64,000 nucleotides of DNA from Candidatus Saccharimonadota bacterium. GTDB taxonomy: Bacteria > Patescibacteriota > Saccharimonadia > Saccharimonadales > Saccharimonadaceae. Of the stretch, positions 61,680 to 64,000 are shown one piece after another. The DNA is taken from assembly GCA_030531645.1 (NCBI GenBank), contig JAUNNB010000001.1, positions 124,001 through 188,000 on the forward strand, read 5' to 3'. The position numbers and the translations under genes are program-made. The notes beneath the pieces were generated by a model that was not told the DNA's origin, did no database searches, and saw nothing but the letters and a program-made list of their open reading frames with translations. How positions within the stretch are numbered: the stretch's first letter is position 1; each line of letters starts with the position of its first letter.

Positions 61680-63779
61680 ATGGCAACCGAAATAAAAGAT
61701 TTATCAAAGTTGCGCAATATTGGTATTATCGCCCATATTGACGCAGGTAAAACGACTTGTTCCGAAGCCATCCTTTATCGTACCGGTTTGAAGCACAAAA
61801 TCGACCTCGTTAAAGGTGACACCGGTGGCGCCACCACCGACTGGATGGAACAGGAGAAGGAACGCGGTATCACTATTACATCTGCCGCTGTTACTGCATA
61901 CTGGAAGGGTCACAAGATCAACATTATTGATACCCCAGGCCACATCGACTTCACCGCTGAGGTGGAACGCTCACTTCGCGTTCTCGATGGTGCCGTCGTG
62001 GTCTTCGATGGTAAGATGGGTGTTGAGGCTCAGTCTGAAACCGTTTGGCGCCAGGCTACCAAATATGGTGTCCCTCGCATCTGTTTCGTAAACAAGATTA
62101 ACCAGATTGGTGGTGATTTCTACAAATCTCTCGAATCAATTCACAAGCGTCTTTCTAAGAACGCTGTTGCTATCCACCTCCCAATCGGTTTTGAAAAAGA
62201 CATCTGTGGTGTTGTTGACCTCGTTGATATGAAGGCTTACACCTACAAGGATTACACCGACCACGAATTAACCGTTGGTGAAATTCCTGCAGATATGCTC
62301 GAGAAAGCTAAGAACGCTCGCTCAATGCTCGTTGAGGAAGCTGTTCAGGCTGACGAAGAGCTTATGAACAAATACTTCGAACAGGGTGAAGATGCAATTA
62401 CCGTCGACGAACTTAAGACTGCTCTCCGCAAGCGCGTGCTTGATGGCGACTTCTTCCTCGTTACTGGTGGTGATGGCCGTGGTGTCGTGATTGAAAAACT
62501 TCTCGACCTTTGTGCTGACTATCTCCCATCTCCTCTTGATCGTGATCAGGGCCAGACCGTTGGTACCGATCCAAAGACTGGTAATGAAGTTATCCGTAAG
62601 GCTGATGAAAAAGAGCCTCTTACTGCTCTCGCATTCAAGATTGCTACCGACCCATTCGTTGGCAAGCTCGTATTCATCCGTGTTTACTCCGGTAAACTCA
62701 CTTCCGGTTCTTACATTATGAACGCAACTACTGGCGATAAGGAACGCGTTGGTCGTATCGTCCGTATGTTCGCTGATAAGCGTGAAGATATCGATGAAGT
62801 CACTGCTGGTGATATTGCCGCTGTGGTTGGTCTCAAAGATACCACTACTGGTACCACTCTTTGTGACCCAGCTCATCCAATTCACCTCGAGTCTATCGAA
62901 TTCCCAGATCCACCTGTATCTATTGCTGTTGAGCCTAAGACTAAGGCTGACCAGGAAAAAATGGGTATTGGCCTCTCTAAGATGGCTGAAGAAGATCCTA
63001 CCTTCCGTGTCCACAGCGATGAAGAAACCGGCCAGACCATTATTTCCGGTATGGGCGAGCTCCACCTCGAGATTATTATCGACCGTTTGAAGCGTGAACA
63101 TGGCGTTGAAGCTAACACTGGTGCTCCACAGGTTGCCTATCGTGAAACTATTCGCGGTACCGCTGAAGCACAAGGTAAGCACATCAAGCAGTCCGGTGGT
63201 CGTGGTCAGTATGGTGATGTTTGGATTAAGTTTGAACCAAATGAACCAGGTAAAGGCTTTGAATTCATCGACCAGATTAAAGGTGGTGTCGTTCCTCAGG
63301 AATACCGCAAACCTGTCCAGCAAGGTGTTGAAGAAACCCTTAACGGTGGTGTTATCGCTGGCTACCCAGTTGTCGATGTCAAAGCTACCCTCTATGATGG
63401 TTCTTACCACGATGTCGACTCCTCCGAGCTCGCCTTCAAACTCGCAGGTAGCCTCGCTACTCGTGAAGGTATTTCCAAGGCTAGCCCAGTGCTCCTCGAG
63501 CCTGTGATGAAGTTGGAAATCACTACCCCTGAAGAATTCATGGGCGATGTGATTGGCGATATTAACGCTCGCCGTGGCCGCATTGATGAAATGGAAGATC
63601 TAAACGGCGGTGCTAAGCTAATCCGCGCCTTCTGTCCACTCGGTAACCTCTTCGGTTACACCTCCGATCTCCGCTCTATGAGCCAAGGTCGTGCTGCATC
63701 CAGCATGGAGCTCTTTGCTTACGAGGAAGTTCCACCTAATGTGGCAAACGAAATCATTGCAGAACGCAACGCTAAATAA
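61680..63779 (+). CDS. fusA: Translation elongation factor G
   Basis: GTPase that moves tRNAs and mRNA on the ribosome. The protein has 699 residues with normal five-domain order. G1 AHIDAGKTT (18-26) and DTPGH are normal, but the G4 guanine-specificity motif NKxD reads NKIN at 138-141, with Asn in place of the Asp. Domain IV has the usual GGRGQYGDV region and GGVVPQEY. Start set by family length; TAAGGA lies upstream. Single gene with its own terminator; rpsL, rpsG and tuf are not adjacent. Confidence 0.96.
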
Positions 63780-63786
63780 TAGTAAT

Positions 63787-63816
63787 AAAAAGAGCCCCCG
63801 AAAGGGGGTTCTTTTT
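63787..63816 (+). terminator. Intrinsic terminator of fusA
   Basis: AAAAAGAGCCCCC pairs with GGGGGTTCTTTTT (one G-T pair) around a GAAA tetraloop, ending in T runs. Confidence 0.9.
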
Positions 63817-63839
63817 ATCTTTATAAAACGCCATAAATT

Positions 63840-63848
63840 TGCTATAAT
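63840..63848 (+). promoter_or_regulatory. Extended -10 promoter of the terminal structured RNA
   Basis: TGC-TATAAT ends 3 bases before the outer helix of the RNA at 63852, which fits a transcript start at or just inside that helix. Confidence 0.65.
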
Positions 63849-63851
63849 TAA

Positions 63852-63986
63852 GGTGTCTAAACCAAATTAATAAGCAACAGTTACAGCAATAGAGTATGTA
63901 ATACTTTGTTATGTCGTATTTGCCCGAGACTAGGACATCACGACATAATAGGGTTAATATGACTCTGTTGCTTGGGTTTAGACACC
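63852..63986 (+). ncRNA. Large structured RNA: 6S-like or riboswitch-like (continues to window edge)
   Basis: No reading frame fits here. The outer helix P1 pairs GGTGTCTAAACC (63852-63863) with GGTTTAGACACC (63975-63986), 12 bp without mismatch. P2 pairs AAGCAACAG (63872-63880) with CTGTTGCTT (63965-63973). A distal helix P3 pairs TTATGTCGT (63909-63917) with ACGACATAA (63940-63948), and a small hairpin AGTAT/ATACT lies at 63893-63905. Nested helices around a central open region recall 6S RNA. But GACACC of P1 can also pair with GGTGTC at 63993-63998, a P1-versus-terminator layout seen in riboswitches. No tmRNA, SRP or RNase P signature. Confidence 0.6.
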
Positions 63987-64000
63987 TGTCGTGGTGTCCT

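Follow-up and report, generated by a model that had tools for sequence, protein, structure and literature searches.

A widespread structured RNA class of Saccharibacteria, best explained as a modular leader attenuator

The locus downstream of fusA

The window analysed here is a stretch of 64,000 nucleotides, bases 124001-188000 of contig 6 in a genome of 771 kb. Near its end, fusA is followed by its own terminator-like hairpin (about 63795-63808) and by a unit consisting of a promoter, a structured RNA and a U-run, of which positions 63840-64000 form the 5' part. The RNA has its own promoter, separate from fusA. The features are as follows.

61680-63779, plus strand: fusA (EF-G), the upstream neighbour, outside the RNA unit
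63820-63848, plus strand: promoter, composed of a -35-like element, a 17-nt spacer and an extended -10 element; 10/12 match, TG present
63820-63825, plus strand: -35-like TTTATA
63840-63848, plus strand: extended -10 TGCTATAAT
63851-63863, plus strand: 5' arm of the closing helix P1, AGGTGTCTAAACC; P1 covaries
63864-63871, plus strand: A/T-rich junction after the P1 5' arm, AAATTAAT, weakly conserved as AATTTAATA
63872-63895, plus strand: two 5' segments (63872-63880 and 63885-63895), rivals for one 3' strand
63909-63948, plus strand: P3 hairpin, 63909-63917 with 63940-63948; its 3' strand overlaps segment A
63932-63945, plus strand: segment A, AGGACATCACGACA, 14/14 complementary to segment T
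63962-63973, plus strand: ACTCTGTTGCTT, the 3' strand shared by both alternative P2 helices
63975-63987, plus strand: P1 3' arm; its end R (GACACC, 63981-63986) can pair with 63993-63998 instead
63987-64000, plus strand: segment T, TGTCGTGGTGTCCT, the strand before the U-run

Beyond the window, AATTTGTTTTT directly follows segment T (L004 3002-3012), and the RNA ends about 12 nt past the window edge, in CCTAATTTGTTTTT. After this end come a third GGTGTCTA and the hairpin CTGTTGC-GGAAAG-GCAACAG, in which GGAAAG resembles a Shine-Dalgarno sequence. Next is the ATG start codon of a gene for an N6/N4 DNA methyltransferase (PF01555; type II MTase). The end of this gene overlaps a type II restriction enzyme gene, and about 70 nt separate the end of the unit from the pair. 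Past the R-M pair (L004 4484-9000) a series of ORFs follows; most of those tested have no Pfam match, and some are membrane-like. The region looks like a variable gene island after fusA.

A preliminary description of positions 63840-64000 had proposed a promoter directly before a closing helix, two further helices and no coding potential. All three helices are present: 63852-63863 pairs with 63975-63986 (12/12, or 13/13 if taken from 63851 to 63987), 63872-63880 with 63965-63973 (9/9) and 63909-63917 with 63940-63948 (9/9). The extended -10 element is the top promoter-like match on the plus strand (10/12, with TG), and no convincing ORF was found within the RNA. A short ORF running through P1 and the terminator in another genome (G104, CxxC-like) has few codons in common with the window frame and is thus probably due to chance. 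Folding of 63848-64000 gave z = -7.2, with none of 200 shuffles as good, and z = -7.7 when downstream sequence was added; the longest perfect helix has 13 bp, whereas the longest seen in 1000 mononucleotide shuffles had 11.

The earlier observation is correct and larger in extent than first described. It had lacked an alternative register, in which 63885-63895 pairs with 63962-63972 (11/11) on the same 3' strand as the second helix, a crossing pairing of 63932-63945 with 63987-64000 (14/14, including one G-U), a local hairpin (63981-63986/63993-63998), and the U-run and gene just past the window edge. A similar duplication of the 5' P2 segments was seen by eye in the methyltransferase leaders G104, L049, L051, L054 and L057.

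Homologues and distribution

BLAST detected a single relative, of 33 nt, in another genome of the same genus, where it precedes genes for an EcoRI-type methylase and an endonuclease of the GmrSD/HNH type. With a sequence model covering 36 nt at the RNA 5' end (R1), a family emerged in which P1 varies in sequence yet is still paired. A covariance model with P1 as its sole structure (R2) matched 89 of 174 genomes of the genus, with up to 15 matches per genome (16 candidates scored), and 173 of 394 genomes of the family, spread over 36 of 61 genera. TGnTATAAT is kept at equal distance in the seed homologues; both models contain this motif, so that their matches were selected for carrying it. Matches outside the family are rare, with 4 genomes in a phylum-wide sample of 380, and two of these (G721 and G684, from other classes of the phylum) could be contaminated bins. 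In one subgroup, the matches in named genomes were all in Candidatus Saccharibacteria.

Of 11 copies inspected in one genome (G175), most precede related exported surface proteins. In this genome and three others (G377, G251, G391), many RNA copies lie less than 200 nt from contig ends; assemblies thus seem to break at repeated leader/surface-gene units, and copy numbers are therefore probably underestimated.

Two other searches were discarded. A search for a 17-nt pattern that allowed 2 mismatches returned mainly chance matches, and GGTTTAGACACC..GGTGTC in microvirus-size contigs was rejected as a homologue, its context being different; exact patterns in viral contigs yielded no homologue of the RNA. 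Six of the microvirus-size contigs (L039, L040, L042, L043, L045, L046; IMG/VR, about 4.4-4.6 kb) have in common a hairpin GACACC-n-GGTGTCTAAACC, which immediately precedes a Shine-Dalgarno sequence and a small basic ORF. Here GGTGTCTAAACC is the same 12-mer as the window P1 arm.

Covariation of the closing helix and of a crossing pairing

The preliminary description had named covariation among relatives, assessed with a covariance model, as its check. Comparison of the homologues shows two covarying helices, P1 and the pairing of segments A and T (A:T). In P1, 96.7% of cells are paired, both-side changes occur in 6 of 9 pairs, and the covariation score is 0.475 versus 0.145 for shuffled controls; 0/500 shuffles equalled the percentage paired or the score. 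Sliding the partner strand by one to three columns destroyed the signal (covariation at most 0.09).

Segment A has an A-rich consensus followed by GGGCAYCGC. On a sequence-based alignment that also carries P1, and that is free of best-complementarity bias, 93% of A:T columns are paired, with both-side changes in 4 of 8 pairs. A and T are complementary in 94/94 loci, with a mean length of 13.5 nt for cognate and 8.8 nt for non-cognate combinations, and in 75 non-redundant loci pairing amounts to 81-100% in columns -3 to +8, where double changes are frequent; the register over the 94 and 75 loci was picked by best complementarity, which inflates these counts. The double changes in the 75 loci reach the loop of the local hairpin and the nucleotides between this hairpin and the U-run. 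Since these positions lie outside the local hairpin stem, A:T is selected in its own right and not as a by-product of the local hairpin. With segment A inside P1 and segment T outside, A:T is a pseudoknot crossing P1.

Such compensatory evolution, together with the terminator and the gene-leader position, led us to reject an integron attC site, a retron or a miniature transposon, which were considered because of the inverted ends; no reverse transcriptase was found among the checked genes adjoining the RNA.

Genes downstream of the RNA

The preliminary description had raised the possibility of a leader for a gene beyond the window, and the homologues bear this out. The median distance from the model end to the downstream start codon is 34 nt, and 78 of 91 ORFs start within 110 nt, in front of very different genes from many unrelated families; in one locus (L073), a Shine-Dalgarno sequence and ATG immediately follow the U-run. 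A gene so placed would depend on readthrough, which leads us to read the RNA as a 5'-leader transcription attenuator that probably decides whether the downstream gene is transcribed.

About 24 of the 91 downstream genes are R-M genes by family match or conserved EFYT motif, and about 6 more are methyltransferase-like by eye. They comprise EcoRI-type, Dcm-type, N6/N4, Eco57I and MmeI type IIG enzymes and a Tsp45I endonuclease. Further products include exported proteins with a Fibrobacter-succinogenes-major domain, TM2 proteins, lysozyme/amidase, DUF4352, OmpA-like and PNPOx proteins, and proteins without Pfam matches. We read the RNA as controlling a gene set that would consist to about a third of R-M genes and otherwise mostly of genes for exported or membrane proteins. 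A second R-M gene of the window's genome (L189, type III Mod-like by eye) is associated with a divergent RNA copy.

An independent small RNA gene, whose stable product acts in trans while the downstream gene is a mere neighbour expressed by leakage, would account for the separate promoter and U-run, for the likeness of A and T sequences between copies, and for A:T itself, which would hide the 3' end. However, the RNA lies nearly always directly before a same-strand gene, often without room for a second promoter, and the leader of a small membrane-protein family (MKDRKTYKIL..., by eye; L157, L170, L171, L173, L178, L179, L182) is kept across several genera. We consider a small RNA gene quite improbable.

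Competing folds and the sign of the switch

Segment T can pair either with A or, as a local hairpin (R:T), with the 3' strand of P1, and A is often sequestered in a hairpin of its own; in the window, A overlaps the P3 3' strand. The folds are thus mutually exclusive, with {P1, A:T} competing against {R:T, A in P3}. Across the family, 5.6 of the 13.5 nt of segment A are on average paired upstream in the free domain. By rough energies, in which pseudoknot terms are approximate, {P1, A:T} is favoured by about 17 kcal/mol before any pseudoknot penalty.

From these pairings and the position before genes we infer termination, the identity of the ON fold and control by a signal. With moderate confidence, we propose a 5'-leader attenuator with its own promoter, in which A:T would be the terminating (OFF) fold and sequestration of A would allow readthrough. 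During synthesis, P1 would close a domain whose apical segment A complements T, the last strand before the U-run. Pairing of A with T over about 13 nt, up to or into the U-run, would cross P1 to form the pseudoknot, so that the apical domain gives the 5' arm of the terminator. Alternatively, A would be held in the P3 hairpin and T paired with the P1 3' end (R), and transcription would read through into the methyltransferase-endonuclease pair.

The opposite sign is possible, though on balance we regard it as rather unlikely: the local R:T hairpin would be the terminator, and A:T with P1 would capture T as an antiterminator (ON). R:T is conserved and itself a plausible terminator, with 4-9 bp in nearly all loci and covariation by eye in L158, L164, L092, L086-088 and L083; the arrangement would be the standard riboswitch layout, and A:T plus P1 is the more stable state by the rough energies. 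On the other hand, R:T is weak (mean -8.7 kcal/mol, 75 loci) and usually stops 1-4 nt short of the U-run, and covariation of A:T continues as far as the U-run, more than an antiterminator would require.

Three observations favour A:T as the OFF state. First, in 67 of 75 non-redundant loci the A:T helix directly adjoins the U-run or ends within it. Second, L188, a further copy from the genome of the window (its A contains GTCGGCATCGTAAG, its T CTTACGATGCCGAT and then TTTT), keeps A:T (-27 kcal/mol) and the U-run although it has no useful local hairpin (dG -2.9). Third, four loci (L094, L166, L175, L135) keep A:T but have lost the U-run after T, and a separate strong terminator hairpin lies downstream. 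The lost U-run as such counts against the proposed model; by eye, however, T could pair in three of these loci with the 5' arm of the downstream hairpin, which would again make A:T the OFF state.

Comparison with known RNA families

The preliminary description had called the RNA undescribed and structured, and had proposed an Rfam scan. At the gathering threshold, Rfam 15 matched tRNAs only in the window, the downstream 9 kb and 20 homologous loci, and no other known family; with a relaxed cut-off, weak matches appeared mostly at the fusA terminator. This result and the compensatory changes in homologues uphold that part of the description, as well as the idea of a gene leader, whereas the suggested likeness to 6S RNA did not stand. 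The RNA shares with 6S RNA a long, imperfect closed hairpin with an open middle. 6S RNA, which binds sigma70 RNA polymerase and templates pRNA, usually has one or two genes per genome and is not a gene leader; the present RNA, by contrast, occurs in many copies per genome, each before a gene, and differs in its defining pairing (A:T). The 6S model RF00013 had zero matches in the window's genome, while 5 of 14 control genomes match it, and none of the 6S, tmRNA and tRNA models matched the RNA. A divergent 6S RNA is therefore very unlikely.

The hallmarks of an attenuator found here are a structured leader with a terminator-like end directly before a same-strand gene, and mutually exclusive pairings that include the strand before the U-run and have evolutionary support. 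In fluoride/crcB and preQ1-I riboswitches, too, the 5' leader contains a pseudoknot that overlaps an intrinsic terminator or competes with it. This likeness is consistent with a metabolite riboswitch whose small, poorly conserved aptamer core comprises P1, the A:T pseudoknot and A/U-rich junctions, as is the weak conservation of AATTTAATA following P1 and of A-rich bases ahead of the P1 3' arm. Those riboswitches, however, conserve a ligand core and belong to coherent gene sets, whereas the Saccharibacteria RNA conserves nearly only pairing (unpaired conservation outside segment A is weak and A/U-rich only), precedes unrelated genes with no metabolic theme and has no Rfam match. We consider a metabolite trigger improbable; it would be compatible with either sign of the attenuator.

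T-box leaders also combine a terminator with a competing pairing, and the apical AGGGCACCGCG superficially resembles their T-box sequence, AGGGUGGNACCGCG. In the Saccharibacteria RNA, however, segment A pairs with the strand before the U-run, and no specifier domain or tRNA-related genes were seen. RF00230 did not reach its gathering score in the window, its flank or 20 homologous loci, and none of 30 downstream genes scanned was an aminoacyl-tRNA synthetase or amino-acid gene. In pT181-type attenuators, terminator formation is decided by a chain of competing segments in the leader, an organization shared here, but promoter prediction gave no antisense promoter for the opposite strand of this locus.

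The main text of four papers on bacterial ncRNA discovery (PMC8040213, PMC2864571, PMC11109978, PMC8632094), as far as accessible, does not mention Saccharibacteria. Judged by Rfam 15 and the open-access papers searched, the RNA class is previously uncatalogued; it is the class that is new, cis-acting attenuators being a known kind of regulator.

Implications and further observations

Saccharibacteria are a large family of tiny parasitic bacteria, and to our knowledge little is known about their gene regulation. Comparative evidence shows a real, widespread RNA class, for which a modular leader attenuator is the best explanation. If true, this would be an RNA regulator that occurs in over half of the genera sampled from one family, preceding surface-protein and DNA-restriction genes, the functions likeliest to matter for life on a host and phage resistance. 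A pseudoknot terminator spanning 40-60 nt would be an unusual mechanism, and the RNA switch is testable since cultured relatives exist. It is tempting to go further and to speculate, tentatively, about a generic, gene-independent class of switches of ultrasmall episymbionts, in which the covarying pseudoknot itself is the terminator and a portable module sets or randomises expression of many surface-protein and R-M genes.

In the methyltransferase leaders, a ribosome-binding-site hairpin CTGTTGT..CAACAGAG-ATG (L004 3024-3075; L050, L058, L060, L066) repeats the P2-strand sequence of the same RNA and changes along with P2 (L066, CAGAACATA / CAACAGAACATATG). This echo suggests that the RNA might pair with the start site, and the hairpin may add translational control. 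In L007 (8555-12006), a cluster of Vsr, a MutH-like REase and a C5 methyltransferase is divergent from the RNA-led EcoRI-type system, placing two R-M systems side by side.

Finally, the EcoRI-type methylase of five loci (L078, L079, L097, L145, L168) carries ATA at the very position of the ATG in homologues, following a hairpin that holds AGGAGG. In L078, L097 and L168, no in-frame ATG, GTG or TTG occurs between the last stop and the conserved motif, and AUA initiation is possible in these genes.
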